Part shown: one piece after another, positions 15,599 to 35,892 of the stretch
Layout of the letters: the number at the start of each line of letters is the position of its first letter
How positions within the stretch are numbered: the stretch's first letter is position 1
Assembly (NCBI GenBank): GCA_017403185.1
Contig: JAFQON010000025.1
Coordinates: forward strand, 1 to 51,059
Source of the DNA: Clostridia bacterium
GTDB lineage: Bacteria > Bacillota > Clostridia > Oscillospirales > Acutalibacteraceae
Direction: 5' to 3'
DNA: 51,059 nt
Program-made: the position numbers and the translations under genes
Notes under the pieces: generated by a model
What the model saw: the letters and a program-made list of their open reading frames with translations, nothing else
What the model was told of the DNA's origin: nothing
The model's database searches: none

Positions 15599-15627
15599 TT
15601 GACTTTGACGGCTCTTTTATATATAAT
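15599..15627 (+). promoter_or_regulatory. Promoter of the ten-gene VOR/acyl-CoA ligase operon
   Basis: TTGACT (15599-15604), a 17-nt spacer and TATAAT (15622-15627). Predicted initiation near 15634 would give an 80-nt leader. No comparable promoter or terminator was noticed in the short gaps between the ten downstream genes, so one long transcript is inferred. Confidence 0.8.
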
Positions 15628-15637
15628 ATTAAGAAAC

Positions 15638-15652
15638 CTTATAGTGCATAAG
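15638..15652 (+). promoter_or_regulatory. Candidate operator in the VOR operon leader
   Basis: Inverted repeat CTTAT-AGTGC-ATAAG, a few nt past the predicted start site. A hairpin (GCATATTCC TGC GGGAAATGC, 15673-15693) follows before the ribosome binding site AAGGAGA. The XRE-cupin protein encoded in the same operon is the obvious candidate regulator, which is inference. Confidence 0.4.
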
Positions 15653-15713
15653 TGTTATTTATTTATTTCAGGCATATTCCTGCGGGAAATGCTGTTCAAA
15701 AGGAGAGATTCGC

Positions 15714-17126
15714 ATGAAAAAAATCACAATCGCAGACGCAACGCTCAGAGAGTGTGCAAAAAAGGGTGATATCGCCCTCAGCTTCAAAGAGAAAATCGAA
15801 ATTGCAAAGCTTCTTGATAAGCTCAGCATTGATGTTATAGAAGCTGCTCCCATCTCGGATGAGAAAATTGACACACTTGTATTGCGCACTATAAGCCCCC
15901 TCCTACAGAACAGCATTCTATCATGCCCCGTCGGCAGCTCAGTTGAGGAAGCGGACAGAGCCATGAAATCAATTTCAGGCACAAAGAAGCCCCGCCTTCT
16001 TGTTTCACTTCCCGTTTCTGCCGTTCAGATGGAATATTTCTGCCACAAAAAGCCCGCTCAGATGCTTGAGCTGATTTCCTCACTCACAGCTCACTGCTCA
16101 ACTCTTTGCAATGATGTTGAGTTTGCTGCGGTTGATGCCACAAGAGCGGATAAGGCATATCTTTTTGAGGCAATCAAAGCTGCAATTGAAGGCGGAGCAA
16201 AAACAATCACGGTTTGTGACACTGCAGGCGCACTTCTGCCCTCAGAGTTTGCAGCACTTATTGAAGATATTTACGAAGCTGTTCCCGCCGCAAAGGATAT
16301 TACCGTCTGTGCAGAATGCAGCGATGCGCTTGACATGGCAAATGCGTGCGTATTCTCGTGCATTGATGCGGGAGCAACTCAGATTAAAACCTGTATCGGC
16401 AGTGAAGCGCTCCCCAACCTTGAACATGTTATGAAAGCTCTTCAGGTCAAGGGTCACACTCTCGATGTGAGCTACGGCGTTAACTCAATGGCAATCAACC
16501 ATTCTGCAAATCAGATTCTCAGAATGACGAGCGAAAGCCACGGCGGCTCATCGCTTGCAAATGTTTCTTCCGAATCCGCAAGCACCGTGCTGCTTGATGA
16601 TACAGCCGATATCGCAAAGGTGAGCAAGGCAATTGTCACTCTCGGCTACGAGCTTACGGAAGACGACACCTCAAAGGTCTTTGAAGCATTCAAAAATGTT
16701 TCGGGCAAAAAGCAGGTTGGTGCAAAGGAGCTTGATGCAATCATTGCTACCGTTGCCCATCAGGTGCCCCCCACATACAGAGTGCAGAGCTATGTGCTCA
16801 ACTCGGGCAATCTTATTTCATCAACAGCAAACATTGTTCTTGAAAAAGGCAGCCGCACCCTTAAGGCGGTCGGCATGGGCGACGGACCCGTTGATGCCGC
16901 ATTCAGAACAATCGAGCAGATTATCGGTCACCACTATGAGCTCGACGATTTTCAGATTCAGTCAGTAACCGAAGGCCGTGAGGCTATGGGTGAGGCTCTT
17001 GTTAAGCTCCGCTCAAACGGCAAGCTTTATTCGGGCAAGGGCATTTCAACCGATATTATCGGTGCAAGCATCATCGCCTATGTAAATGCACTCAACAAAA
17101 TCGTTTATGAGGAGGAAAATATATGA
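15714..17126 (+). CDS. 2-isopropylmalate synthase-like protein with substituted metal ligands
   Basis: A 470-residue protein with LeuA architecture: a TIM-barrel HMGL-like domain (about 1-260), a linker, and a C-terminal LeuA-type dimer/regulatory domain (about 350-465; SGNLISSTANIVLEKG, MGDGPVDAAFRTIEQIIG, GKGISTDIIGASIIAYVNAL). Normal enzymes have LRDG and an HxH pair that bind the divalent metal. Here the first motif is TLREC (Glu13 for Asp; Arg12 kept) and the HxH position reads CAEC (Cys199, Glu201). The overall fold and the allosteric domain look intact. It is either an altered metal site with new chemistry or a noncatalytic sensor. It overlaps the next gene by 4 nt. Confidence 0.8.
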   Translation: MKKITIADATLRECAKKGDIALSFKEKIEIAKLLDKLSIDVIEAAPISDEKIDTLVLRTISPLLQNSILSCPVGSSVEEADRAMKSISGTKKPRLLVSLPVSAVQMEYFCHKKPAQMLELISSLTAHCSTLCNDVEFAAVDATRADKAYLFEAIKAAIEGGAKTITVCDTAGALLPSEFAALIEDIYEAVPAAKDITVCAECSDALDMANACVFSCIDAGATQIKTCIGSEALPNLEHVMKALQVKGHTLDVSYGVNSMAINHSANQILRMTSESHGGSSLANVSSESASTVLLDDTADIAKVSKAIVTLGYELTEDDTSKVFEAFKNVSGKKQVGAKELDAIIATVAHQVPPTYRVQSYVLNSGNLISSTANIVLEKGSRTLKAVGMGDGPVDAAFRTIEQIIGHHYELDDFQIQSVTEGREAMGEALVKLRSNGKLYSGKGISTDIIGASIIAYVNALNKIVYEEENI

Positions 17127-19633
17127 AGCTTTCATTCTCAACAAACGGCTGGCAGGATCTTTCATGGTCTGAATTCATAAATACCGCCGATGACCTCGGT
17201 TTCAGCGGTATCGAAATCCACAATATAACAGACAGCAGATTCACGGGCAGCGACGCACCTTTCAACAAGGTAAATTCCGCTGCAACGGTTCACAGACTCC
17301 TTGAAAAATCAATCTCAATCCCCTGTATAGATACTTACTGCAACATTGCAGACGAAAGCGAAGCCGACAAGGGCTTTGAAGAAATTGCAACCGCAATTGA
17401 AATTGCAGCAAGGATAAGATGCCCATATGTAAGAATTCATGCTTACGCAACCGGTGCAGAAAAGAAGGCGGAGGATGCCGCCGTTATATCGCTTATCGGC
17501 AGGCTTATCGAAAAAGCGGAGCAGGACAAGGTAGCACTTCTTGTTGAAACCGTCGGTCTTTATGCCGACACATCAAGGCTGCGTGACCTTCTCAATGTTT
17601 TTGCCTGCGATTACCTTGCGGCACTCTGGGATATCAACCACCCCTACAGAGATTTCGGCGAAGAGCCTGACACAACAATCACAAACCTCGGCGCATACAT
17701 AAAGCATGTTCATGTAAAGGATTCGGTTGTTGAAGACGGCGAGATGAAATACCGCCTTGTGGGTGAGGGAAATCTTCCCATAGGCACAATGCTCCGTGCC
17801 CTTGATTCGGTTAACTATGACGGCTTCCTTTCGTATGAATGTCAGCCTGAAAAGATGGAGGATTTCGGCGTTGCCGATATCGTATTCCCCCACTTTGTGA
17901 ATGCAATCACAGTCTACGATAACAAGAAGAAAAGCGAAGAGCTTCTCTACACCAACAGAAGCGGAAGCGGCAAATTCGTTTGGGAAAAATACAAGCTCAT
18001 CAACAAGACCTTCTCACAGGTGCTTGACACGATGGTTGAAAAATTCCCCGATCAGCTCGCTTACAAATACACGACACTTGACTACACAAGAACATATTCT
18101 CAGTTCCGTGACGATGTTGATAACTGCGCAAGAGCACTCATTGCTCTGGGCGTAAAGCCCGGCGACAAGGTTGCCGTATGGCTCACAAACCTGCCTCAGT
18201 GGTTCATCACCTTCTGGGCAACCACCAAAATCGGCGCAGTTCTTGTTACGGTCAACACTGCATACAAAATCCATGAAATCGAGTATCTTCTCAGGCAGTC
18301 AGATACTCATACACTTGTAACCATCGAATCCTGCCTTGATTCAAATTACGCTCAGTCAATCGCAGAGCTTTGCCCCGAGCTTGAGGTTGCAGTGCCGGGC
18401 AAACCCCTTCATTGCCGCAAGCTCCCCTTCCTGCGTAACATCATTACGGTCGGCTATCGTCAGAAGGGCTGCCTTACATGGGAAGAAGCAATGGATATGG
18501 CGGTAAGAGTTCCCATTGAAGAGGTTTACCGCAGAGCAGCCAATGTTGACTGCCACGATGTTGCAAATATGCAGTATACATCGGGCACAACAGGCTTCCC
18601 CAAGGGCGTTATGCTCACTCATTACAATATCGTCAATAATGGCAAAACAATCGGCGACAAAATGGATATGTCAACGGCAGACCGTATGATGATTCAGGTT
18701 CCCATGTTCCACTGCTTCGGCATGGTGCTTTCAATGACATCAATGATGACCCACGGCGGCACACTCTGCCCCCTGCCTTATTTCTCGGCAAAGTCATCCC
18801 TTGCCTGTGTGAATCAGGAGCATATCACCTGCTTCAACGGCGTGCCCACAATGTTTATCGCCATGTTCCAGCATGAGGATTTTGCAAAAACAGATTTCTC
18901 ATATATGAGAACAGGCATTATGGCAGGCGCAAACTGCCCGCCCGAGCTTATGAAGCGTGCCGCTGCTGAGATGAATATGACCGAAATCCTCAGCGTTTAC
19001 GGTGAAACCGAAGCTTCTCCCGGCTGCACAATGGGCGAGGTTAACGAATCGCTTGAGGACAGAACCGAAACTGTCGGCAGGGCATTCCCGAATGTTGAGT
19101 GCAAAATCATTGATCCCGAAACGGGCGAAGACCTCCCCGACGGCGAAAACGGCGAATTCGTTGCAAGAGGCTACAACATCATGAAGGGCTACTATAAGAT
19201 GCCCAAGGCAACCGAAGGCGCAATAGACAAAGACGGCTGGCTTCACAGCGGCGATATCGCCTGCAGACGCCCCGACGGATACTATATGATAACCGGCAGA
19301 CTTAAAGACATGATTATCCGTGGCGGTGAAAACATCTATCCCCGTGAGATTGAAGAGTTCATTTTCACTCACGAATATGTTCAGGATGTTCAGGTTATCG
19401 GCGTGCCCGACAAGAGATACGGCGAAGAAATCATGGCTTGCGTAATCCTCAAAGAAGGCCGTTCAATGACTGAGGATGAAATGAAGGATTATATCAAATC
19501 CCATATGGCAAGGCACAAGGTTCCCCGCTATATTGAATTTGTTGAGGATTTCCCCAAAAATGCGGCAGGCAAGATTCTCAAATATAAAATGAGAGAAGAA
19601 TTTGCCAAAAAATTAGGACTTTCCAAAGATTAA
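17123..19633 (+). CDS. Fusion of a sugar-isomerase-like TIM barrel and an acyl-CoA ligase
   Basis: An 836-residue fusion. Residues 1-265 are a xylose-isomerase-like (sugar phosphate isomerase/epimerase) barrel with all four usual metal ligands apparent: Glu in LLVETVG, Asp in ALWDINHP, His in HVHVKD, Glu in LSYECQP. Residues about 290-836 are an ANL-family acyl-CoA ligase with the P-loop YTSGTTGFPKGVM, the YGETEASPG motif, the hinge GRLKDMIIRGGENIYPREIEE and the adenylating Lys near NAAGKILKY. There is no stop or frameshift between them. Short acids would be activated with ATP and CoA, perhaps after isomerisation by the barrel. The gene is translationally coupled (ATGA) to the LeuA-like gene. 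This pairing is not one I recognise. Confidence 0.88.
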   Translation: MKLSFSTNGWQDLSWSEFINTADDLGFSGIEIHNITDSRFTGSDAPFNKVNSAATVHRLLEKSISIPCIDTYCNIADESEADKGFEEIATAIEIAARIRCPYVRIHAYATGAEKKAEDAAVISLIGRLIEKAEQDKVALLVETVGLYADTSRLRDLLNVFACDYLAALWDINHPYRDFGEEPDTTITNLGAYIKHVHVKDSVVEDGEMKYRLVGEGNLPIGTMLRALDSVNYDGFLSYECQPEKMEDFGVADIVFPHFVNAITVYDNKKKSEELLYTNRSGSGKFVWEKYKLINKTFSQVLDTMVEKFPDQLAYKYTTLDYTRTYSQFRDDVDNCARALIALGVKPGDKVAVWLTNLPQWFITFWATTKIGAVLVTVNTAYKIHEIEYLLRQSDTHTLVTIESCLDSNYAQSIAELCPELEVAVPGKPLHCRKLPFLRNIITVGYRQKGCLTWEEAMDMAVRVPIEEVYRRAANVDCHDVANMQYTSGTTGFPKGVMLTHYNIVNNGKTIGDKMDMSTADRMMIQVPMFHCFGMVLSMTSMMTHGGTLCPLPYFSAKSSLACVNQEHITCFNGVPTMFIAMFQHEDFAKTDFSYMRTGIMAGANCPPELMKRAAAEMNMTEILSVYGETEASPGCTMGEVNESLEDRTETVGRAFPNVECKIIDPETGEDLPDGENGEFVARGYNIMKGYYKMPKATEGAIDKDGWLHSGDIACRRPDGYYMITGRLKDMIIRGGENIYPREIEEFIFTHEYVQDVQVIGVPDKRYGEEIMACVILKEGRSMTEDEMKDYIKSHMARHKVPRYIEFVEDFPKNAAGKILKYKMREEFAKKLGLSKD

Positions 19634-19655
19634 ATTACCGAAAGGGTGTTATATA

Positions 19656-20720
19656 ATGTTAAATATCAAAATTGAGAGAACAACCGCTCCCAAGCAGAAG
19701 CCTGACGAGAACAATCTCGGCTTCGGCAAAATCTTCACTGACCATATGTTTATCATGAACTACACAGAAGGTCAGGGCTGGCACGATCCCCGCATAGTTC
19801 CTTATCAGAACCTTGCTCTTTCACCTGCCTGCATGGTTTTCCATTACGGTCAGGAGATGTTTGAGGGTCTTAAAGCTTACAAGGGTGCTGACGGCGAAGT
19901 CCGCCTTTTCAGACCCGAAATGAATGCCAAAAGAACAAACGACACAAACAAGCGTCTTTGCATTCCCGAGCTTCCCGTTGAGGATTTTGTTCAGGCTGTA
20001 AGCGAAATCGTTAATGTTGACCGCGACTGGATTCCTTCCGCTCCCGGCACCTCGCTTTACATCCGCCCCTTCATCATCGCAACAGATGATTTCCTCGGCG
20101 TTGCTCCTTCAAAGACCTACCTCTTCATCGTAATCCTCTCACCCTCAGGCGCTTATTATTCAAGCGGTCTTGCTCCCGTAGGCATCTGGATTGAAGATGA
20201 CTATGTAAGAGCAGTCAAGGGCGGTATGGGCTTTGCAAAAACAGGCGGCAACTACGCAGCAAGCCTTGCAGCTCAGGTCAAGGCTCACGATGACGGTTAT
20301 TCACAGGTTCTCTGGCTTGACGGCGTTGAGAGAAAATATATTGAAGAAGTCGGCGCAATGAACATTTTCTTCAAGATTAACGGCACAATCGTTACCCCCA
20401 TGCTCAACGGCAGCATTCTCCCCGGTATCACAAGAAACTCGGTTATCGAGCTTTGCAAGAGCTGGGGTCTCCCCGTTGAAGAGAGAAAGATTTCCGTTGA
20501 CGAGCTTCTTGAAGCTCAGAAAAACGGCACTCTTGAGGAATGCTTCGGCACAGGCACCGCAGCTGTTATTTCACCCGTCGGCAAGCTCCGCTACAAGGAT
20601 GATGTTATGACCATCAACGGCGGCGAAATCGGCGAAATCAGCCAGAAGCTCTATGACACCGTAACAGGCATTCAGGGCGGCACTTGCGAAGACAAGTTCG
20701 GCTGGGTAACGGTTCTCTAA
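19656..20720 (+). CDS. ilvE: Branched-chain amino acid aminotransferase
   Basis: A 354-residue class IV PLP aminotransferase of the longer (type II) BCAT kind. It has HYGQEMFEGLKAY near residue 70, the PLP-lysine region GFAKTGGNYAASLAAQ, then VLWLDGVERKYIEEVG and the phosphate-binding GSILPGITRNSVIEL. It interconverts Val, Leu and Ile with their 2-oxo acids using glutamate/2-oxoglutarate. Lying just upstream of the VOR genes, it links 2-oxoisovalerate-type acids to amino acids, for synthesis or degradation. Spacing to the fusion gene is 22 nt, with a good AAAGGG site. Confidence 0.93.
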   Translation: MLNIKIERTTAPKQKPDENNLGFGKIFTDHMFIMNYTEGQGWHDPRIVPYQNLALSPACMVFHYGQEMFEGLKAYKGADGEVRLFRPEMNAKRTNDTNKRLCIPELPVEDFVQAVSEIVNVDRDWIPSAPGTSLYIRPFIIATDDFLGVAPSKTYLFIVILSPSGAYYSSGLAPVGIWIEDDYVRAVKGGMGFAKTGGNYAASLAAQVKAHDDGYSQVLWLDGVERKYIEEVGAMNIFFKINGTIVTPMLNGSILPGITRNSVIELCKSWGLPVEERKISVDELLEAQKNGTLEECFGTGTAAVISPVGKLRYKDDVMTINGGEIGEISQKLYDTVTGIQGGTCEDKFGWVTVL

Positions 20721-20721
20721 T

Positions 20722-21417
20722 ATGAACAGTAAAAGAATTACCCTTTTTGCAGGTCATTACGGCAGCGGCAAAACCAACATTGCGGTCAACTATGCTCTTT
20801 GGCTGAAAGAGGAGCACGAAAAGGTTGTTATTGCAGACCTTGACATCGTAAACCCCTATTTCCGCTCAAAAGACAGCGAAAAACATCTTGAAGAAAGAGG
20901 AATCCACCTTATTTCTTCGGAGTATGCAAACTCCAATGTTGATGTGCCCGCAATGCCGTCGGAAGCGTATTCGATAATTGACGATAAGTCACTCAGAGCC
21001 GTTATTGATGTTGGCGGCGACGACAGAGGAGCACTTGCAATGGGCAGATATGCCCCCGCAATCCTCGACGAAAACGATTATGAAATGCTTCTGATTATCA
21101 ACAAATACAGACCTCTCACCCGTGACTGCGCATCAACGCTTGCAGTTATGCGAGAGATTGAAACAGCTTGTCAGATGAAATTCACAGGCATAGTCAACAA
21201 CTCCAATCTCGGCGACGAAACAGATGAAGAAACCGTGCTTTCATCAATTGATTATGCCGAAGAGATTTCAAAGGCAAGCGGTTTGCCGATAAGAATGACC
21301 ACCGTAAAAGAAGATTTATACGATAAACTAAAAGAAAAAGTTGCAAACTGCACTGCGATTAAGCTTTATGTAAAGCAATCGTGGGCTAAACAGGAGGAAG
21401 ATTTATGGCAAAAGTAA
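20722..21417 (+). CDS. MinD/ParA-like P-loop ATPase of the VOR operon
   Basis: A 231-residue P-loop NTPase of the CobQ/MinD/ParA class. Walker A is GHYGSGKTN at residues 11-19, followed by VVIADLDIVNPYFRS (the switch I-like region of this class) and AVIDVGGDDRGALAMGRYA (Walker B/switch II area). The later part has LLIINKYRP. It lacks the signature KGG of true ParA and the CPxC of Mrp/Nbp35 Fe-S carriers. It starts 1 nt after the aminotransferase stop and overlaps the ferredoxin-subunit gene by 13 nt, so it is firmly part of this operon. It may assist cofactor or cluster loading of the oxidoreductase, which is inference. Confidence 0.75.
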   Translation: MNSKRITLFAGHYGSGKTNIAVNYALWLKEEHEKVVIADLDIVNPYFRSKDSEKHLEERGIHLISSEYANSNVDVPAMPSEAYSIIDDKSLRAVIDVGGDDRGALAMGRYAPAILDENDYEMLLIINKYRPLTRDCASTLAVMREIETACQMKFTGIVNNSNLGDETDEETVLSSIDYAEEISKASGLPIRMTTVKEDLYDKLKEKVANCTAIKLYVKQSWAKQEEDLWQK

Positions 21418-21611
21418 CCTTTAATACCGACCTTTGCAAGGGCTGCGGTCTTTGCGTCGGTGCATGCCCCAAAAAGATTGTGGCATTGCTCAAGGATGAA
21501 ATCAACGCCAAGGGTTATCACCCCGCCGGCATCACAGACCAGTCAGCTTGCATCGGCTGCGCATTCTGCGCAACAATGTGCCCTGACTGCGTTATAACCG
21601 TTGAAAAGTAA
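21405..21611 (+). CDS. vorD: 2-oxoacid:ferredoxin oxidoreductase delta subunit (2[4Fe-4S] ferredoxin)
   Basis: A 68-residue bacterial ferredoxin-type subunit with two CxxCxxCxxxCP motifs (CKGCGLCVGACP and CIGCAFCATMCP). It would carry electrons from the TPP-bearing catalytic subunit to free ferredoxin. It starts at an ATG behind AGGAGG inside the end of the ATPase gene and lies 11 nt before the alpha subunit. Four-subunit archaeal-type VOR/KOR enzymes have exactly this small delta chain. Confidence 0.9.
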   Translation: MAKVTFNTDLCKGCGLCVGACPKKIVALLKDEINAKGYHPAGITDQSACIGCAFCATMCPDCVITVEK

Positions 21612-21622
21612 GGAGAATAGAA

Positions 21623-22693
21623 ATGGCTGAAAAAGTTTTGATGAAAGGTAACGAAGCTCTTGCGGAAGCTGCTATCATGGCAGGCTGCCGCCACTACTTC
21701 GGCTACCCCATAACCCCTCAGACAGAAATCGCAGCATATATGGCTAAGAGAATGCCCGTTATCGGCGGCACATTCCTTCAGGCTGAAAGTGAAGTTGCTG
21801 CAATCAACATGATTTACGGTGCAGCAGCAGCAGGCAAAAGAGCAATGACCTCAAGCTCAAGCCCCGGAATCGCCCTCAAGAGCGAAGGTATTTCTTACCT
21901 TGCAGGCTCAGACCTCCCCGCTCTTATCATCAATGTTCAGCGAGGCGGTCCCGGTCTCGGCGGCATCCAGCCCTCACAGTCAGACTACTTCCAGGCAACA
22001 AAGAGTGCAGGTCACGGCGACTTCAAGCTCATTGTTCTCGCTCCCGCTTCCGTTCAGGAAATGGTTGACCTCACCTTCAAGGGCTTTGACCTTGCAGATA
22101 AATACAGAATGCCCGCTATGCTTCTTTCAGACGGCACAATGGGTCAGATGATGGAGCCCGTTTCACTTGAAATGGGTGAAGTTAAGGAATATGACAAGTC
22201 ATCATGGGCTGCCTGCGGCACAAAGTGCGAAAGAGAGCACAATGTTGTCAATTCACTCTTCATCCAGCCTGAAGAGCTTGAAAAATATAACTTTGAGCGC
22301 TACGAAAGATACGCTCAGATTGAAGCAAACGAAGTTATGTATGATGAATACAAGATGGAAGATGCTGAAATCTGCATCGTAGCCTACGGCGTTGCCGCAA
22401 GAGTTTCGCAGAACGCTATCGACAAGGCACGCGAGCAGGGCATCAAGGTTGGTATGATAAGACCTATCACTCTCTGGCCCTTCCCCAAGGCTGTTCTCAA
22501 TGCCGCTGCAGATAAGGTTAAGGCATTTATCAGCGTTGAGCTTTCAATGGGTCAGATGATCGAGGATATCGAGCTTGCAACAAGATGCAAGAAGCCCGTT
22601 CTTCTTTGCAACCGTGTTGGCGGCATGATTCCCACAACAGAGGATGTTCTCAATTCAATTAACAAAGCAAATTCCGTCGGAGGTGACAAATAA
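21623..22693 (+). CDS. vorB: 2-ketoisovalerate:ferredoxin oxidoreductase alpha subunit (VorB)
   Basis: A 356-residue pyruvate:ferredoxin oxidoreductase domain I/II protein. LMKGNEALAEAAIMAGCRHY, then FGYPITPQTEI and LQAESEVAAINMIYGAAAAG are characteristic of VorB-type alpha subunits. The mid-part (TSSSSPGIALKSEGISYLAG, then GLGGIQPSQSDYFQATK) is equally typical. With the beta subunit it forms the TPP/CoA site for oxidative decarboxylation of branched 2-oxo acids to acyl-CoA, CO2 and reduced ferredoxin; the reaction is reversible. The stop overlaps the start of the beta gene. The VOR rather than KOR assignment also rests on the adjacent aminotransferase. Confidence 0.9.
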   Translation: MAEKVLMKGNEALAEAAIMAGCRHYFGYPITPQTEIAAYMAKRMPVIGGTFLQAESEVAAINMIYGAAAAGKRAMTSSSSPGIALKSEGISYLAGSDLPALIINVQRGGPGLGGIQPSQSDYFQATKSAGHGDFKLIVLAPASVQEMVDLTFKGFDLADKYRMPAMLLSDGTMGQMMEPVSLEMGEVKEYDKSSWAACGTKCEREHNVVNSLFIQPEELEKYNFERYERYAQIEANEVMYDEYKMEDAEICIVAYGVAARVSQNAIDKAREQGIKVGMIRPITLWPFPKAVLNAAADKVKAFISVELSMGQMIEDIELATRCKKPVLLCNRVGGMIPTTEDVLNSINKANSVGGDK

Positions 22694-23445
22694 TGATAGT
22701 TTTTGAAAAACCCAAGGCACTTGCCGATGTACCCCTTCATTATTGCCCCGGCTGCACACACGGCATTATTCACCGCCTTGTTGCCGAAGTTATTGACGAG
22801 CTCGGCATTGAAGGCAGAACAGTCGGTGTTGCACCCGTTGGCTGTTCAGTTTTCGCATACAACTATTTCAACTGCGATATGATTGAGGCTGCTCACGGCA
22901 GAGCTCCCGCAGTTGCAACAGGCGTTAAGCGTTCACTCCCCGAAAACATCGTTTTCACATATCAGGGTGACGGCGACCTTGCTGCCATCGGCACTGCAGA
23001 AACAGTTCACTCAGCTGCAAGAGGCGAAAACATCACAATTATTTTCGTTAACAACGCAATCTACGGCATGACAGGCGGTCAGATGGCTCCCACCACTCTC
23101 CCCGGTCAGGTAACACAGACCTCACCCTACGGCAGAAATCCCGAGCAGGTCGGTCTCCCCGTTAAGGTTTGCGAGCTTCTTTCAAATGTTGACGGTGCAA
23201 CCTATCTTGAAAGAGTTGCCGTTAACAACGTAAAAAATGTCAAGAACGCAAAGAAGGCTATCAAGAAGGCTTTCCGGAATCAGCTTGAAGGCAAGGGCTT
23301 CTCGCTTGTTGAGGTTCTTTCAACCTGCCCCACAAACTGGGGTCTCAAGCCCGACAAGGCTCTTGAATGGCTTGAAGAAAACATGATTCCTTATTATCCT
23401 CTCGGTGTTTATAAGGACAAGACAGCTGAAAAGGAGGATAAATAA
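22693..23445 (+). CDS. vorA: 2-oxoacid:ferredoxin oxidoreductase beta subunit (TPP-binding)
   Basis: A 250-residue TPP-dependent subunit. The TPP/Mg motif GDGDLAAIG ends with the NNAIYGMTGGQ segment, and YCPGCTHGIIHRL plus VGCSVFAYNYF supply cysteines for a [4Fe-4S] cluster near the TPP. It binds thiamine diphosphate and splits the 2-oxo acid. It overlaps the alpha gene by 1 nt and is 2 nt from the gamma gene. The C-terminal 40 residues (PTNWGLKPDKALEWL) are usual for this family. Confidence 0.9.
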   Translation: MIVFEKPKALADVPLHYCPGCTHGIIHRLVAEVIDELGIEGRTVGVAPVGCSVFAYNYFNCDMIEAAHGRAPAVATGVKRSLPENIVFTYQGDGDLAAIGTAETVHSAARGENITIIFVNNAIYGMTGGQMAPTTLPGQVTQTSPYGRNPEQVGLPVKVCELLSNVDGATYLERVAVNNVKNVKNAKKAIKKAFRNQLEGKGFSLVEVLSTCPTNWGLKPDKALEWLEENMIPYYPLGVYKDKTAEKEDK

Positions 23446-23447
23446 TC

Positions 23448-23978
23448 ATGACACATGAAATACTTCTTGCAGGCTTCGGCGGTCAGGGCATCCTTTTCTC
23501 GGGAAAATTTCTTGCTTATGACGGTCTTCTTGAGGACCGTGAGGTAAGCTGGCTCCCCTCATACGGCCCCGAAATGAGAGGCGGCACCTGTAACTGCTCA
23601 ATCATTCTCAGCGATTCAAAAATCGGCTCACCCATCGTTTCAAACCCCAATGTTCTTGTTGCGATGAACCTGCCCTCACTCGATAAATTTGAGGCTTCGG
23701 CAGTGCCCGGCGCAAAGATTTTTGTTGACAGTTCACTCATCGACCGCAAGGTTGAGAGAGATGATGTTGAGGTTTATTACATCCCCGCAACAAAGCTTGC
23801 TTCAGACGAAAACCTTCCCGGTCTTGCTAACATGATTATGATAGGTCATGTTATTGCAAAGGCAGGCGTTATGCCCTATGAAAATGTTGAAACAACAATG
23901 AAGAAGCTTGTTCCCGCAAAGAAACAGAATCTTATTGAGCTTAACATCAAGGCTGTTGAGCTTGGTTACAACTACTAA
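23448..23978 (+). CDS. vorC: 2-oxoacid:ferredoxin oxidoreductase gamma subunit
   Basis: A 176-residue gamma-type subunit. The opening EILLAGFGGQGILFSGKFLA and the block WLPSYGPEMRGGTCNC are diagnostic of the POR/KOR/VOR gamma domain, which helps bind CoA. It directly follows the beta gene behind AAAGGAGG, completing a four-subunit enzyme in the order delta-alpha-beta-gamma. It ends 25 nt before the XRE-cupin gene. Confidence 0.92.
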   Translation: MTHEILLAGFGGQGILFSGKFLAYDGLLEDREVSWLPSYGPEMRGGTCNCSIILSDSKIGSPIVSNPNVLVAMNLPSLDKFEASAVPGAKIFVDSSLIDRKVERDDVEVYYIPATKLASDENLPGLANMIMIGHVIAKAGVMPYENVETTMKKLVPAKKQNLIELNIKAVELGYNY

Positions 23979-24003
23979 TAATAACGGTTAAGGAGACACC
24001 CAC

Positions 24004-24552
24004 ATGCTTGAATTAAAAGAAATTGGCCTGCGAGTTGCTTCCCTGCGTGAAACCTGCGGCTTTTCAGCTTCGGATATGGCAGAAAAGCTCGAAATCTCAG
24101 AAGAAAACTACAATGCTTTTGAGCACGGTGAATATGACTTTGCCATAAGCACGCTCAACAACATTGCGCTTATCCTCGGCGTTGATATCCTCGATATCAT
24201 CAGCGGCGAATCCCCCCGCCTTTCATCCTGCACGGTTGTTAAAAAGGGCAAGGGCTATGTTGCAAACCGCAACCCCGGATATGAGTTTTCACACCTTGCA
24301 TACACATTCAGAAACAAGAAGGCAGAGCCCTTCCTTGTTACAATCGACCCTTCGGGCAACCCTCCCGTAATGGATGAGCACGAAGGACAGGAATTCGACT
24401 ATGTTCTTTCGGGCAGCCTTCATCTTTACATCGGCGATATCTGCTACGAGCTCAACGAGGGCGACAGTGCATATTTTGATTCCTCAATTCCTCACGCACA
24501 CAAAAATGTGGGCGATACCAAGGCGCAGTTTATTGCACTTGTGCTTAAATAA
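24004..24552 (+). CDS. XRE-family regulator with C-terminal cupin domain
   Basis: A 182-residue regulator. An N-terminal helix-turn-helix of the XRE/Cro type (about 5-62) is joined to a cupin barrel (about 105-180; HEGQEFDYVLSGSLHLYIGD, then GDSAYFDSSIPHAHKN). Cupin-XRE proteins repress or activate catabolic genes after binding a small ligand or metal. The His/Glu/His set suitable for a metal is present. Its place inside the VOR operon implies control by an operon metabolite such as an acyl-CoA, 2-oxo acid or amino acid. An inverted repeat in the operon leader is a possible target. Confidence 0.88.
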   Translation: MLELKEIGLRVASLRETCGFSASDMAEKLEISEENYNAFEHGEYDFAISTLNNIALILGVDILDIISGESPRLSSCTVVKKGKGYVANRNPGYEFSHLAYTFRNKKAEPFLVTIDPSGNPPVMDEHEGQEFDYVLSGSLHLYIGDICYELNEGDSAYFDSSIPHAHKNVGDTKAQFIALVLK

Positions 24553-24583
24553 GGAATACTAAAATTTATCAGGAGTCAGAATA

Positions 24584-26263
24584 ATGGCGATTTATGAAAA
24601 ATTTATAGGCAGAACAAGAGAGTCGTTTATTTCTCTCAAGGACTGTCAGGAAAATTTTAAAATAACCTATGAGCAGGATTTCAATTTTGCTTATGATGTA
24701 ATTGATGTGCTCGGCACTGAAAAACCCGATAAGCTTGCACTTCTCTATGTCGCAAACAACGGAGAAGAGAAGAGATTCACCTTCGGCGATATGAAGCATC
24801 TTTCGGATAAGGCGGCAAATTACTTTGTATCAGAGGGTGTAAAAAAGGGTGACCCCGTTCTTCTTATTCTCAAAAGAAGCTACCTTTTCTGGGTTATCAC
24901 CCTTGCGCTCAACAAAATCGGCGCAATTATGGTGCCCGCTTCAAATATGCTCAAGGGCAAGGACTATGTTTACCGCTGCAACAAGGCAAAAATAAAATAT
25001 GCAGTTATCACGGGCGATGACGAATGCACAGACGATTTTGACTCAGTAATGGAGCAGTATGAAACCATCGAGAAAAAATTCGTTACAAAGCACAAGCCCG
25101 TTGAAGGCTGGATTGACTTTGAAGAAGGCTTTGAAAAGGCAAGCGAGGACTGGGTGAAGCCCACAGGCGAGGCGGCAACAACAGTTGACGACACAATGAT
25201 TATCAACTTCTCCTCGGGCACAACGGGCTACCCCAAAATCATCGCTCACGATTTCAAATATCCCCTCGGTCACATTATGACGGGCGTTTTCTGGCACCAT
25301 GTTATTGACGGCGGAATTCATTTCACCGTTTCTGACTCGGGCTGGGCAAAATCTCTTTGGGGCAAATACTACGGTCAGTGGATGGGCGAAACCGCAATTT
25401 TCGTTTATGATTTTGATAAGTTTGACGGTGCGGATATCCTCTCAAAGCTCGAACAGTACAAAATCACAACCTTCTGCGTGCCGCCCACGATGTATCGCCT
25501 TATGCTTCAGAATGATGTGAGCAAATATGACCTTTCGTCAATCACTCACTGCTGCACAGCAGGCGAAGCACTCAATGCCGACATCTTCAACAAGTGGAAA
25601 GAGGCTACGGGCCTTGAAATTCACGAGGGCTTCGGCATGAGTGAAACTCCCGTAAGCATATGCACGATTTATCCGTGGACAAAGCCCGTTCCGGGCGCAA
25701 TAGGCTTCCCCGCACCCGGTCTGAGGGTACATATTCTTGATGAAGACGGCAACCACTGCCAGAGAGGTACAATCGGCGAAATTTGCATCAAATCCCCCTC
25801 GCCTGCCGAGCATCCCTGCGGCGTTATAGCAAGCTATAACTTCAGCGAAGAGGATACCAACGAGGCTTACAGAGGCGGATTCTTCCATACGGGTGACCTT
25901 GCCTACAGAGATGAGCAGGGCAGATTTGTCTACTTCGGCAGAAACGACGATGTTATCAAATCCTCGGGCTACAGAATCGGACCCTTTGAAATTGAAAGCG
26001 TTATGCTTGAGCACCCTGCAGTGCTTGAAGTTGCGGTTACGGGCGTTCCTGACCCCGTAAGAGGCTTTGTTGTCAAGGCAACCGTTGTTCTCAGACCAGG
26101 ATTTGAGGGCAGCCCCGAGCTTGTCAAGGAGCTTCAGAACTATGTTAAAACAAACACGGCACCTTATAAATATCCCCGTATTGTTGAATTTGTTGATGCG
26201 CTTCCCAAAACCTTCAGCGGCAAGGTAAGACGAGTTGCAATAAGACAGGCGGATAACAAATAA
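24584..26263 (+). CDS. Acyl-CoA synthetase (medium/branched-chain, ANL family)
   Basis: A 559-residue AMP-forming acyl-CoA synthetase resembling the acetyl-CoA synthetase/MACS group. It shows INFSSGTTGYPKIIAHDF (P-loop), HEGFGMSETPVSIC (the YGxTE-equivalent motif), YRGGFFHTGDLAYRDEQGR, the hinge GRNDDVIKSSGYRIGPFEIES and the catalytic Lys near KTFSGKVRR. It activates a carboxylate with ATP and CoA. As the last gene of the VOR operon its likeliest substrates are isobutyrate, isovalerate or 2-methylbutyrate; this is inferred from context. A strong terminator follows at once. Confidence 0.9.
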   Translation: MAIYEKFIGRTRESFISLKDCQENFKITYEQDFNFAYDVIDVLGTEKPDKLALLYVANNGEEKRFTFGDMKHLSDKAANYFVSEGVKKGDPVLLILKRSYLFWVITLALNKIGAIMVPASNMLKGKDYVYRCNKAKIKYAVITGDDECTDDFDSVMEQYETIEKKFVTKHKPVEGWIDFEEGFEKASEDWVKPTGEAATTVDDTMIINFSSGTTGYPKIIAHDFKYPLGHIMTGVFWHHVIDGGIHFTVSDSGWAKSLWGKYYGQWMGETAIFVYDFDKFDGADILSKLEQYKITTFCVPPTMYRLMLQNDVSKYDLSSITHCCTAGEALNADIFNKWKEATGLEIHEGFGMSETPVSICTIYPWTKPVPGAIGFPAPGLRVHILDEDGNHCQRGTIGEICIKSPSPAEHPCGVIASYNFSEEDTNEAYRGGFFHTGDLAYRDEQGRFVYFGRNDDVIKSSGYRIGPFEIESVMLEHPAVLEVAVTGVPDPVRGFVVKATVVLRPGFEGSPELVKELQNYVKTNTAPYKYPRIVEFVDALPKTFSGKVRRVAIRQADNK

Positions 26264-26267
26264 TATC

Positions 26268-26312
26268 AAACGGATTGCATCGGAATTCACCTTTGCAATC
26301 CGTTTTTTTATA
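26268..26312 (+). terminator. Terminator of the VOR operon
   Basis: A perfect 12-bp stem (AAACGGATTGCA / TGCAATCCGTTT) with a 14-nt loop and seven or more Ts, starting 5 nt after the last operon gene. Its T-run contains the stop codon of the convergent uppP gene. Confidence 0.9.
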
Positions 26313-27197: not shown

Positions 27198-29288
27198 TTA
27201 TCTTACTCCGTAAAGAAGATCGGCATATGTGGGGAAGGGCCAGTATTCCGCACCGGTTATGCACTCGGCGGCATCGGCATAAGAGCGGATTTCTTCCATT
27301 TTAGGGATAATTATATCCCTGAATTTGCCTGCTTTTTCGACCGCATCAAGAGGCTTGATTTCTTTCAGTGAAGCTTCAAGCTCATTGACCGACTTATAAA
27401 TCGAAGCGGAAAGAGAAGAAAGCTTTTTGACGGTGTTTTCTTCGTAGGTAAAGTCGGCATCTGCAAAGCAGCTTTTCTTTGCCGCAGCAGTGCTGCTGAC
27501 CTTGCCGATATATGAGCTGATTGCAGGCAGGATATCCTTATTAATCATATCAATAACGGTGAGAGCTTCAATGTTAAGAGTCTTGCAGTAATTCTGGAAG
27601 TAGATTTCCTGCCTTGCTTCAAGCTCTGCTCTTGTGAACACTTTGTGCTCTTCAAAAAGCTTCACATTCTTCTCAGCGGTAAGGCAGGGAAGTGCATCGG
27701 GGGTTGTTCTGAAATTGCTGAGACCTCTTGCCTCGGCTTCTTTGGTCCATTCATCATCATAGCCGTTACCGTTGAAGATTATGCGCTTGTGGTCTCTGAT
27801 GGTCTTTTGAATAAGAGCGTGAAGTGCATCTTCAAAATTATCAACATTTTCAAGCCTGTCCGCATAGGATTTGAGAGACTCCGCAACGGCGGTGTTGAGA
27901 ACAATGTTTGCGCTTGCGATTGAATTTGCTGAGCCGAGCATTCTGAATTCAAATTTATTGCCCGTGAATGCGAAGGGTGAGGTTCGGTTTCTGTCCGTGG
28001 TATCCTTGGGAAAACGGGGTAAAACATGAACGCCGACCTTCATCTGCACGGTTTCTTTTGCATCATATGACGCATCGCTCTCTATTGAATCGAGGATTTC
28101 GTTGAGCTCGTCGCCGAGGAACATTGAAACAACTGCGGGAGGGGCTTCATTGGCACCGAGACGGTGGTCGTTGCCTGCGCTTGCAACGGACATTCTGAGC
28201 AAATCCTGATAATTGTCAACGGCCTTGATAACTGCGCAGAGGAAAAGAAGAAACTGTGCATTATCATAGGGTGTTTCGCCGGGCTCAAGAAGGTTGACAC
28301 CCTTACCTGTTGAGATTGACCAGTTGTTGTGCTTACCGCTGCCGTTAACGCCTTCAAAGGGCTTTTCGTGAAGAAGACAGATAAGATTATGCTTCTTTGC
28401 AACCTTCTGCATAACCTCCATCATAAGCTGATTATGGTCAGTTGCAATGTTTGTTGTTGAGAAAATGGGAGCAAGCTCGTGCTGAGCGGGGGCAGCTTCA
28501 TTATGCTCTGTTTTAGCGAGAATGCCGAGCTTCCAGAGCTCTTCGTTAAGCTCCGCCATGAATGCGGCAATTCGGGGCTTGATTGAGCCGAAATAGTGGT
28601 CATCAAGCTCCTGACCCTTGGGGGGCTTTGCACCAAAAAGGGTTCTGCCTGTAAAAATAAGGTCCTTGCGCTTGTTATACATATCGCCGTCAACAAGGAA
28701 ATATTCCTGCTCCGCACCGACGGTTGTTTTAACACTTGCGGTTTCATCCTGACCGAAAAGCTTGAGAATTCTCTTTGCCTGCTTACCGATTGCTTCCATT
28801 GAGCGAAGAAGCGGAGTTTTCATATCAAGAGCTTCGCCGCCGTACGAGCAGAATGCGGTGGGTATGCAGAGCACACCCTCTTTGATAAAAGCGTATGATG
28901 TGGGGTCCCACGCCGTATAGCCTCTTGCCTCGAAGGTTGAACGGATACCGCCTGAGGGGAAGCTTGAAGCATCGGATTCGCCCTTAACGAGCTCCTTGCC
29001 CGAAAACTCCATGATAACCGAGCCGTCACTGTCGGGCGAAATGAAGCTGTCATGCTTCTCTGCAGTAATGCCCGTCATGGGCTGGAACCAGTGTGTATAA
29101 TGGGTTGCGCCCTTTTCAACCGCCCAATCCTTCATTGCGTTGGCGGCGACATTTGCAACCTCGATGTCAAGACGCTTGCCGTCACGCATCGTCTTTTTGA
29201 TTGCTTTATAGGTTTCTTTGGGTAATCTCGACTTCATGGCTTTATCGTCAAAGACCATACAGCCGAAATAATCGGGAACACTGTTCAC
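27198..29288 (-). CDS. glnN: Type III glutamine synthetase
   Basis: A 696-residue GSIII, the large ammonia-assimilating enzyme found in Bacteroidetes, cyanobacteria and Clostridia. It opens with [20 protein letters not shown] and contains [48 protein letters not shown] and [14 protein letters not shown], the GS active-site blocks in the GSIII version. A GTG at 29288 preceded by GGGAG is the best start; a TTG 15 nt upstream is poorer. It is a single-gene unit with its own promoter and terminator. Glutamate supply also links it to the aminotransferase operon next door. Confidence 0.95.
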
Positions 29289-29320
29289 ATTTATCACTCC
29301 CAATGTTTTTTCAGTTAAAA

Positions 29321-33846: not shown

Positions 33847-35892
33847 TTATTCAGCTGCTTCTTCTGCCGCAGCTTCTTCTGCAACAGCTTCTTCAACAGC
33901 CTCAACTGCTTCTTCAGCTGCTTCCTCAGCGGGCTCGATGAGAGCACGGATTGAAAGGCTTACACGCTTCTTATCGTAATCAATAGCGGTAATCTTGCAG
34001 GTTACGGTTTCGCCAACCTTAAGAACATCCTGAGGCTTGCTGATATGACGGTCAGCAATCTGTGAAATGTGGATAAGGCCGTCAATGCCGGGGATAACTC
34101 TTGCGAATGCGCCGAATGTTGTCATGCCAACGATTTCAGCTTCAACAACCGAGCCTTCGGGATAGTTGTTCTTGAGAATTGCCCAGGGATTGTCCTCGTC
34201 TTTTCTGTAGCCGAGTGAAATCTTCTTGTTTTCTGCATCAAGTGACTTGATGTAAACATCAACTTCCTGACCGATTTCGAATACTTCTGAAGGATTCTTG
34301 ATGCGCTTCCATGACATTTCTGAAATGTGAACCATGCCGTCGATGCCGCCGATATCAACAAATGCGCCGTAGTTTGTCATTGACTTAACAACGCCGTGAT
34401 ATGTCTGACCCTCTGCAGCCTGTGCCCAGAATGCCTCTGCAGCTTCCTTCTTTGCTTCCTTAAGTACGGAACGGATTGAGCCGACTGCTCTTCTGCGCTG
34501 CTTGTTAACCTCGATGATGCGGAACTTAACAGTCTTCTTGAGAAGATCCTCAAGATTCTCATCTCTGCGCTCTGTTGCGTGTGAAGCGGGAACAAATACG
34601 CGAACGCCGTTTGAAACAACTCTTACGCCGCCCTTAACAACTTCTGCAACGGTGCCTTCAAGAACTCTGCCGTCTTCTTCAGCGGCAATAATTTCAACCC
34701 AAGCGTTCTGTGCATCGAAGCGCTTCTTTGAAAGCATAACAGTTCCTTCGGCATCGTTGGTCTTCATTATGATAAGATCGATTTCGTCGCCGATTTTGAG
34801 CTCCTTGGCTGCATCAGCGTTGGGGTCTGCGCTGTACTCATCCATGGGAACATAGCCGGCATGCTTTCTGCCGATGTCAACCTGGATTTCTGTGGGAGTG
34901 ATGCCCATAACAACGCCCTTGACCTTTTGGTCAGTGCTCATGCTGCTGAGTGAAGCTTCAAGTGCTGCGGAAAAATCCATATCGTCTGTTATTACTGCTG
35001 CTTCAGAAGGCACCTCCTCTACCTGCAATTTTGTGGTTTCGTTTACGATTTCGGACATTTCTAAAAGTACCTCCTTAATTATTACGGAAGGGGTTGATGC
35101 CCCTGCCGTGACGCCGACTTCGGCGTGATTGGAAAAATTTATGGTCCTGAGCTCGTCAGCTCTTTCCACCAGATATGTTTCACAGCTGTCACTGCAAACC
35201 GCCTTAAGCTTTGCCGTGTTGGAGCTGTGGCGACCGCCGATAATAATCATCAGGTCGCTTTTCTTTGAAAGCTCGGCAGCTTCATCCTGCCTTTTTCGTG
35301 TCGCACTGCATATTGTATCAAAAATTTTCGGATTTGTACAGTATATTTTTATTTTTTCTTTACAAATTTTCCATTCTTTTTGCGAAAAAGTGGTCTGAGA
35401 AACAACTATTATTCTTTTTTTGCACAATTCAGGCTTCTCACCGAGAATTTTTTCAAGCTCATCGGAGCTGTTAAACACAAAAACCTCACCGTTGCTGTGA
35501 CCCTTTATGCCGATAACCTCGGGGTGATTGGGGTCACCCGCAATAAGAACGGGAATATCTGCCGAGGAATTCTCAGCAACGATTGTGTGGATTTTTTTCA
35601 CAAACGGGCAGGTTGCATCACAGATAACGGCGCCCGTTTCTTCAAGCTCTTTATACACACTTTCAGCCACTCCGTGCGCACGGATAATAACCGTTTCACC
35701 CCTCTGCGCCTGAGACGGAGAATCAATAAGCCTCACGCCCTTGTTCTCCAACTCGGAGGTGACAAAATTATTATGTATAAGCTCGCCGAGAGTTGCAGCC
35801 TTCACATTTTTTTTCGCAAGCTCATAGGCCATTTCAACCGCTCGGTCAACGCCGAAGCAGAAGCCCGCCGTTTTTGCAAGTGTTATTCGCAA
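33847..35892 (-). CDS. ispH-rpsA: Fused IspH (HMBPP reductase) and ribosomal protein S1
   Basis: A 681-residue fusion. Residues 1-285 are IspH, which reduces HMBPP to IPP and DMAPP; the three [4Fe-4S] cysteines are in GFCFGVD, DATCPFV and TICSATRKRQ. From about 320 come four S1 RNA-binding domains (for example GVVKSMTNYGAFVDIGGIDG, then DGMVHISEMSW), followed by an Ala-Glu tail of about 30 residues. This fusion is known from many Clostridia and couples isoprenoid synthesis with an mRNA-binding ribosomal protein. The start overlaps the plsC stop by 10 nt. It closes a five-gene operon. Confidence 0.95.
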   Translation of the reverse strand: MRITLAKTAGFCFGVDRAVEMAYELAKKNVKAATLGELIHNNFVTSELENKGVRLIDSPSQAQRGETVIIRAHGVAESVYKELEETGAVICDATCPFVKKIHTIVAENSSADIPVLIAGDPNHPEVIGIKGHSNGEVFVFNSSDELEKILGEKPELCKKRIIVVSQTTFSQKEWKICKEKIKIYCTNPKIFDTICSATRKRQDEAAELSKKSDLMIIIGGRHSSNTAKLKAVCSDSCETYLVERADELRTINFSNHAEVGVTAGASTPSVIIKEVLLEMSEIVNETTKLQVEEVPSEAAVITDDMDFSAALEASLSSMSTDQKVKGVVMGITPTEIQVDIGRKHAGYVPMDEYSADPNADAAKELKIGDEIDLIIMKTNDAEGTVMLSKKRFDAQNAWVEIIAAEEDGRVLEGTVAEVVKGGVRVVSNGVRVFVPASHATERRDENLEDLLKKTVKFRIIEVNKQRRRAVGSIRSVLKEAKKEAAEAFWAQAAEGQTYHGVVKSMTNYGAFVDIGGIDGMVHISEMSWKRIKNPSEVFEIGQEVDVYIKSLDAENKKISLGYRKDEDNPWAILKNNYPEGSVVEAEIVGMTTFGAFARVIPGIDGLIHISQIADRHISKPQDVLKVGETVTCKITAIDYDKKRVSLSIRALIEPAEEAAEEAVEAVEEAVAEEAAAEEAAE

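Follow-up and report, generated by a model that had tools for sequence, protein, structure and literature searches.

A Clostridia operon that probably converts branched short-chain acids to amino acids, and its conserved gene pair with an apparently inactive 2-isopropylmalate synthase

Introduction

How might a ten-gene operon of a Clostridia bacterium (family Acutalibacteraceae) turn branched short-chain acids into amino acids, and why does it begin with a relative of 2-isopropylmalate synthase (IPMS, LeuA)? The operon consists of ten open reading frames on the + strand (15714–26263) of contig JAFQON010000025.1, assembly GCA_017403185.1. The whole stretch of 51,059 nucleotides, hereafter the window, belongs as contig C18 to a bin of 2.4 Mb, which is 80 per cent complete and 4 per cent contaminated. 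An earlier examination of the letters alone (the sequence-only reading) had recognized a 2-ketoisovalerate ferredoxin oxidoreductase (VOR), a branched-chain aminotransferase (BCAT), two acyl-CoA ligases, and a cupin regulator, all of which are borne out by family or domain matches, the regulator having a helix-turn-helix (HTH) domain as well (Table 1); it had mentioned neither the IPMS kinship of gene 1 nor the triosephosphate isomerase (TIM) barrel of gene 2. We find that these two genes, rather than all ten, form the fixed core of the locus, and that the operon probably makes amino acids from branched acids by reductive carboxylation.

Conservation and distribution of the locus

A scan of named genomes with a profile of gene 1 returned at least 594 stretches, at least 591 of them confirmed, of which the best 80 were kept. 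Together with 20 loci from relatives of the window's genome, they make up 100 loci, with a few duplicates (among them L032/L051 and L034/L053, the same contigs in two collections; 107 of the 110 tree rows differ). Gene 2 lies directly 3' of gene 1 in all 100 loci, which come from four phyla and were all fetched by gene 1, and hence are silent on gene 2 without gene 1. The two genes overlap by 4 nt in 44 loci. The ligase half of gene 2 is present in 94, and the other six loci end inside gene 2.

The identical ten-gene order occurs in 11 loci (9 different contigs), including L061 and L077, which share it at 50 per cent gene-1 identity; such recurrence is more than chance would give. Conservation of the gene neighborhood, which the sequence-only reading had proposed to check, extends far beyond the genus. 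Elsewhere, the same blocks are rearranged. Of the 100 loci, 41 hold VOR, 44 hold BCAT, 43 hold a ligase of the gene-10 type, and 30 hold a fusion of the HTH–cupin protein with such a ligase; all of these numbers are lower bounds, as many contigs are short. The fusion proteins (L043, L047–L050, L065, and others) are about 750–820 aa long and often encoded as a tandem pair. The rearrangement of the pair and its partner blocks between loci argues for a shared function. As a separate observation, 17 of the 100 loci have an Amidohydro_2 family gene close to the pair (e.g. L041:13726–14529 and L091:13939–14856).

The titles of the best 80 scan records include Oscillospiraceae, Lachnospiraceae, Salinivirgaceae/Bacteroidetes, Lentisphaeria, and Eggerthellaceae. 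An animal is named in 42 of these 80 titles, and it is always a ruminant or a horse; sampling may be the cause of this skew, with herbivore-gut surveys filling much of that list. In the phylogeny, gene-1 sequences from Bacteroidota, Lentisphaerota, and Actinomycetota nest within the Clostridia part of the tree, and transfer of gene 1 between phyla is therefore likely.

Gene 1, an IPMS homolog that has lost its catalytic motifs

Gene 1 has the fold and domain order of LeuA, with HMGL-like and LeuA_dimer domains, and scores below the LeuA equivalog cut-offs (261 of 598.7 bits for TIGR00973; 291 of 532 bits for NF002086). Gene-1 homologs form a clade separate from canonical LeuA, with a Shimodaira–Hasegawa-like approximate likelihood ratio test (SH-aLRT) support of 100. 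We take the metal ligands of LeuA to be the Asp of LRDG, both residues of HxH, and the Asn of GERxGN. Among 101 gene-1 homologs (102 before removal of L126:15841, a canonical LeuA), 93 keep none of these four positions, eight keep one (the Asn in seven, the second His in one), and none keeps two; all four are present in each of eight canonical LeuA sequences (of nine; L142 was left out, here and in the conservation values below). The GER of GERAGN is likewise deleted in 101 of 101 homologs and kept in eight of eight canonical sequences. These motif counts and the tree rule out gene 1 as the ordinary LeuA of its genome. Conservation is also shifted along the protein: within the gene-1 family the regulatory domain (0.76) is more conserved than the barrel (0.55), and in canonical LeuA the order is reversed (0.59 and 0.71, respectively). 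By its sequence, then, gene 1 looks like a catalytically dead IPMS.

Gene 1 could instead still be an enzyme, with a new HMGL-fold reaction rather than sensing alone. Its barrel is well predicted (predicted local distance difference test scores of 78–97 in 10-residue blocks over residues 1–270), and D141, R144, and D169 are invariant among 30 aligned sequences. Against this stand the loss of the four metal-ligand positions and of GER, which are filled by varied residues, and the lack of any HCS_D2 domain at E <= 0.001 in 30 of 30 gene-1 sequences, and we regard continued catalysis as unlikely. That gene 1 acts as a leucine sensor of gene 2 has about an even chance, in which case it would bind leucine and contact the gene-2 protein. 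We hypothesize, with confidence slightly short of even, that a pseudo-IPMS was captured as a feedback subunit that binds leucine and throttles an adjacent isovalerate ligase, and that the pair has spread from phylum to phylum among gut bacteria.

Two acyl-CoA ligases

The TIM barrel of gene 2 scores far below the equivalog cut-off of sugar epimerases (FrlC and relatives; NF007360, 42 of 305 bits), and a sequence search of the PDB gave two weak matches at E <= 0.01. At what we take to be the metal site of sugar epimerases, the barrel has epimerase-like residues in the window's clade and lacks them in L042–L050. The ligase half is PRK12583-like, under the subfamily cut-off (670 of 832 bits), and its sequence places it in another ligase branch than gene 10.

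The best solved relative of gene 10 is PDB 3ETC (624 bits, E 1.6e-186, residues 5–557 of 559), which is MacsMa, an enzyme whose preferred acyl substrate is 2-methylbutyrate according to the available part of its description (PMC10455477). The best NCBIfam match of gene 10 is MbcS, with 421 bits under a cut-off of 850. In an excerpt of the MbcS report, 2-methylbutyrate and isobutyrate are its substrates and isovalerate is a poor one (PMC10026030), so that it is reasonable for the operon to have another ligase for isovalerate. We infer from these relatives that gene 10 serves the acids of isoleucine and valine, and gene 2 may take isovalerate.

The main task of the ligases might instead be to provide branched acyl-CoA as primers of membrane fatty acids, the role that the same excerpt gives MbcS in Staphylococcus aureus, where it feeds fatty-acid synthesis (PMC10026030). 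The MbcS match of gene 10 speaks for this. However, fatty-acid synthesis genes are absent among the ten, VOR and BCAT share the operon, and the association is with leucine and valine genes, all of which makes a primer supply very unlikely.

Oxidoreductase, aminotransferase, and the proposed route

The VOR set is complete, with VorB over its curated cut-off and the thiamine pyrophosphate (TPP)-binding, gamma, and ferredoxin subunits assigned by domain only; it would act on branched 2-oxo acids or acyl-CoA. Gene 4 lies directly 5' of the ferredoxin gene, and its type adjoins gene 5 in VOR loci; all of its matches to MinD, ParA, and ApbC are weak. Sixty related genomes were compared, 35 of which carry gene 1 (carriers). 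VorB exceeds its cut-off in 33 of the 35 carriers and in 12 of the 25 others, G001 being counted among the latter here and set aside below because its match is partial. Gene 1 and VorB are at most 15 kb apart in 18 of the 35 carriers.

In the proposed route, gene 10 would convert 2-methylbutyrate and isobutyrate, and gene 2 isovalerate, to CoA thioesters (ATP to AMP). VOR (genes 5–8) would then add CO2 to the acyl-CoA with reduced ferredoxin, yielding branched 2-oxo acids, from which BCAT (gene 3) would make isoleucine, valine, and leucine. Gene 1, presumably a dead enzyme kept for its leucine-binding domain, would act as the partner of gene 2 and set the flow into leucine.

leu and ilv genes in genomes with and without gene 1

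The sequence-only reading had suggested a check of whether carriers lack ilv and leu genes. A sample of the class (196 genomes, 20 carriers and 176 others) was used, in which carriers were split from canonical LeuA by score alone (at least 439 versus at most 368 bits) and the neighborhood of gene 1 was read in G000, the window's bin, only. LeuC (E <= 1e-120) is present in 5 of 20 carriers versus 122 of 176 others (Fisher P = 0.0003); with LeuC over its cut-off, which 109 of the 176 others have, the comparison with carriers gives P = 0.003. For ilvD over its cut-off, the counts are 5 of 20 and 108 of 176 (Fisher P = 0.003). Fifteen of the 20 carriers lack both genes, and five have both. Among the 60 relatives, a LeuC-sized frame of the aconitase family (420–477 aa) is found in 4 of 35 carriers (G000, G002, G011, and G036) versus 13 of 24 others (P = 0.0009). 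Completeness reaches 90 per cent or more in 16 carriers, of which 14 have no ilvD and 15 no LeuC-sized frame. LeuA over the TIGR00973 cut-off occurs in seven relatives, none of them a carrier.

Individual loci illustrate the pattern, most tellingly those of carriers G006, G008, and G034. Their ilv operon has about 90–99 per cent protein identity to that of carrier G011, but lacks leuA, leuC, leuD, and leuB at precisely the place, between the ridA-like gene and ilvB, where G011 has them. In G011, leuA and leuC were named by NCBIfam, ilvC and ilvD by profile matches, and leuD and leuB through L126; ilvA, ridA, ilvB, and ilvN are presumed from size and order. The bins of G006, G008, and G034 (81–88 per cent complete) contain no LeuA besides gene 1 and no whole LeuC-sized frame; a 405-aa frame of G006, cut by the contig end, scores like 650-aa aconitases. 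In the Eggerthellaceae locus L126 (9992–18546), the sole one of the 100 with this arrangement, the pair heads a run of leuC, leuD, a true LeuA over its cut-off, and leuB. The window's bin holds three syntenic leu–ilv operons on the short contigs C23, C28, and C44 (L131–L133), 87–91 per cent identical to one another. The bin is probably mixed, and these operons make the absence test unreadable for the window's own organism.

Several observations weigh against the proposed route. MacsMa also adenylates C3–C8 acids, as the accessible part of that report states (PMC10455477), and the gene-2 ligase has two PDB matches at E <= 1e-70, one to a fatty-acyl-CoA synthetase and the other to a feruloyl-CoA synthetase. 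In 14–15 of the 100 loci (L091, L083, L088, L110, and L124 among them), VOR is unlinked and a single-chain gene of the pyruvate:ferredoxin oxidoreductase (PFOR) type lies downstream of the pair; that of L091 exceeds the pyruvate:ferredoxin cut-off. Within the 60 relatives, ilvD differs weakly (6 of 35 carriers versus 10 of 24 others, P = 0.07). A PRK03739-type LeuA is found in carriers G000, G002, and G011, and a canonical-type LeuA in G091 and G161. Both ilvD and LeuC are present in the G000 bin, G011, G083, G128, G091, G161, three Salinivirgaceae, and L126, and carrier genomes from the named scan have ilvD in 7 of 10 and a LeuC-sized frame (457–522 aa) in 5 of 20. None of these carrier and non-carrier counts takes shared ancestry into account, and bins are often incomplete. 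Loss of the leu block from G006, G008, and G034 is indistinguishable from its gain by G011, and gene absence also fits amino acid uptake.

Two points of the sequence-only reading are narrowed as a result. ilvD and LeuC are rarer in carriers, and yet some carriers (G011, three Salinivirgaceae, L126, and others) keep them, which rules out a module that replaces the ilv and leu genes everywhere. A module dedicated to branched acids agrees with the preference of the gene-10 kin for 2-methylbutyrate; the claim is weakened by a fixed core of just genes 1 and 2 and by the replacement of VOR by PFOR in about 15 of the 100 loci.

The substrates might also be others, namely aryl acids (phenylacetate, indoleacetate) converted to aromatic amino acids or, in the PFOR-linked loci, acetate converted to pyruvate. 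In favor of this, the substrate of a ligase is unreadable from its sequence, the gene-2 ligase matches a feruloyl-CoA synthetase, and PFOR is linked in 14–15 of the 100 loci. Nevertheless, VorB and BCAT are over their cut-offs, gene 10 is MacsMa-like, and the regulatory domain of gene 1 is of the LeuA type. The bin also holds another 2-oxoacid oxidoreductase on contig C34, with a 577-aa frame that presumably has the size of indolepyruvate enzymes. We consider these substrates highly improbable.

The operon could also run in reverse, with BCAT and VOR fermenting branched-chain amino acids to acyl-CoA and reduced ferredoxin and the ligases recapturing the acids. VOR is reversible, and missing ilv and leu genes are also compatible with import of amino acids. 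Two AMP-forming ligases, however, consume ATP at a point at which a fermenter would make it, and phosphotransbutyrylase, butyrate kinase, and CoA-transferase domains are absent from the ten genes. Moreover, gene 1 conserves the regulatory domain of a leucine-synthesis enzyme, and in L126 the pair heads a run of leucine-synthesis genes. The reverse direction therefore appears improbable, and the synthetic one fits better.

Operon layout and regulation

The co-directional genes with short overlaps or gaps, the promoter, and the terminator described by the sequence-only reading are all confirmed as real. Spacings from gene 1 to gene 10 are −4, 22, 1, −13, 11, −1, 2, 25, and 31 nt. The promoter ranks first among 24 promoter-like sites in 13 kb, a total not much higher than that of shuffled sequences (18.2, sd 3.6). 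The terminator is given by its fold (Table 1) and is missing from the output of the promoter scan.

Table 1. Features of the operon in the window.
Feature	Position	Strand	Basis
Sigma-70-type promoter, TTGACT-17-TATAAT	15599–15627	+	11 of 12 matches; kept in aligned relatives
Candidate operator palindrome, CTTATAGTGCATAAG	15638–15652	+	just 3' of the -10 box
Gene 1: IPMS (LeuA)-like protein, catalytic motifs gone, LeuA_dimer kept; proposed leucine sensor	15714–17126	+	
Gene 2: xylose-isomerase-like TIM barrel (~1–285) and AMP-forming acyl-CoA ligase (~291–833); proposed isovalerate ligase	17123–19633	+	
Gene 3: BCAT (ilvE_II)	19656–20720	+	NF009897 508 bits (cut-off 307); TIGR01123 414 (250)
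Gene 4: MinD/ParA-like P-loop protein	20722–21417	+	weak CbiA/ParA matches
Gene 5: ferredoxin with two Fer4 stretches, VOR delta subunit	21405–21611	+	PF00037 over cut-off
Gene 6: VorB	21623–22693	+	NF005507 548 bits (cut-off 399)
Gene 7: TPP-binding VOR subunit	22693–23445	+	PF02775 over cut-off; TIGR02177 below
Gene 8: VOR gamma subunit	23448–23978	+	PF01558 over cut-off; TIGR02175 below
Gene 9: HTH and cupin regulator	24004–24552	+	domain matches
Gene 10: MacsMa-type acyl-CoA synthetase; proposed 2-methylbutyrate/isobutyrate ligase	24584–26263	+	
Intrinsic terminator, then T run	26268–26305	+	fold −19.8 kcal/mol, z −7.1

Gene 9 would control transcription, probably by reading the palindrome downstream of the promoter. 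This palindrome has one match in the window, with 0.04 expected at <=2 mismatches. Of 150 locus entries, 17 contain the pattern CTTATANTGNATAAG, each a single time; they represent nine genomes, all from the window's clade. The remaining 133 entries, and with them every locus outside that clade, lack it; clade members L009–L011 do not have the exact palindrome. A search for palindromes shared upstream of distant gene-1 and gene-9 homologs gave no wide motif. Rfam at gathering scores returned no RNA family in the whole window, and hence no described T-box or riboswitch. Among the neighboring genes in the window are two ordinary ones, for a type III glutamine synthetase and for a LytB–S1 fusion (27198–29303, 33847–35892).

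Relationship to known systems and implications

Known reductive carboxylation relies on a ferredoxin-dependent 2-oxoacid oxidoreductase and an aminotransferase. Both are alike in the operon, as are the acids and products proposed here. As physiology, the process is old: in the parts of the literature available, the knowledge that rumen bacteria use branched volatile fatty acids to build leucine, valine, and isoleucine goes back to the 1960s–1970s (PMC7356843), and Allison and others are cited for the reductive carboxylation by which rumen bacteria and methanogens turn isovalerate, isobutyrate, and 2-methylbutyrate into leucine, valine, and isoleucine (PMC7356843, PMC10658910). What differs is that the process is known as physiology, whereas here it would be assigned to genes, which encode a pseudo-IPMS, a fusion of a TIM barrel with a ligase, and, in other carriers, a fusion of the HTH–cupin protein with a ligase. 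The suggestion that the system is undescribed consequently does not hold for the physiology and does hold for the genes within our literature search, which covered few subscription journals: it found the physiology and two ligase papers, and no description of the gene set, the dead-enzyme partner, or either fusion.

The individual components depart from their relatives to different degrees. Gene 10 aligns with MacsMa of Methanosarcina acetivorans over nearly its full length, but its counterparts in many carriers are fusions with the HTH–cupin regulator. MbcS is likewise an AMP-forming ligase for 2-methylbutyrate and isobutyrate, though gene 10 stays under its cut-off. Genes 5–8 have the subunit set of VOR, preceded here by a P-loop protein. 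Gene 1 shares the fold, domain order, and LeuA_dimer domain of LeuA, but not its metal ligands, GER, or HCS_D2, and belongs to a separate clade.

If the proposed route is correct, the operon would be a dedicated gene set for isoacid use, one that lends itself to testing and to counts across genomes, and the pair of genes 1 and 2 would be a candidate marker of isoacid-using bacteria; isoacids have been studied as a feed supplement for yaks, according to an excerpt of one report (PMC10311502). If gene 1 is indeed a leucine sensor, the dead IPMS would clearly exemplify the reuse of an allosteric domain through retention of the whole enzyme, and a route without an IPMS step would be controlled by leucine through an old IPMS sensor.

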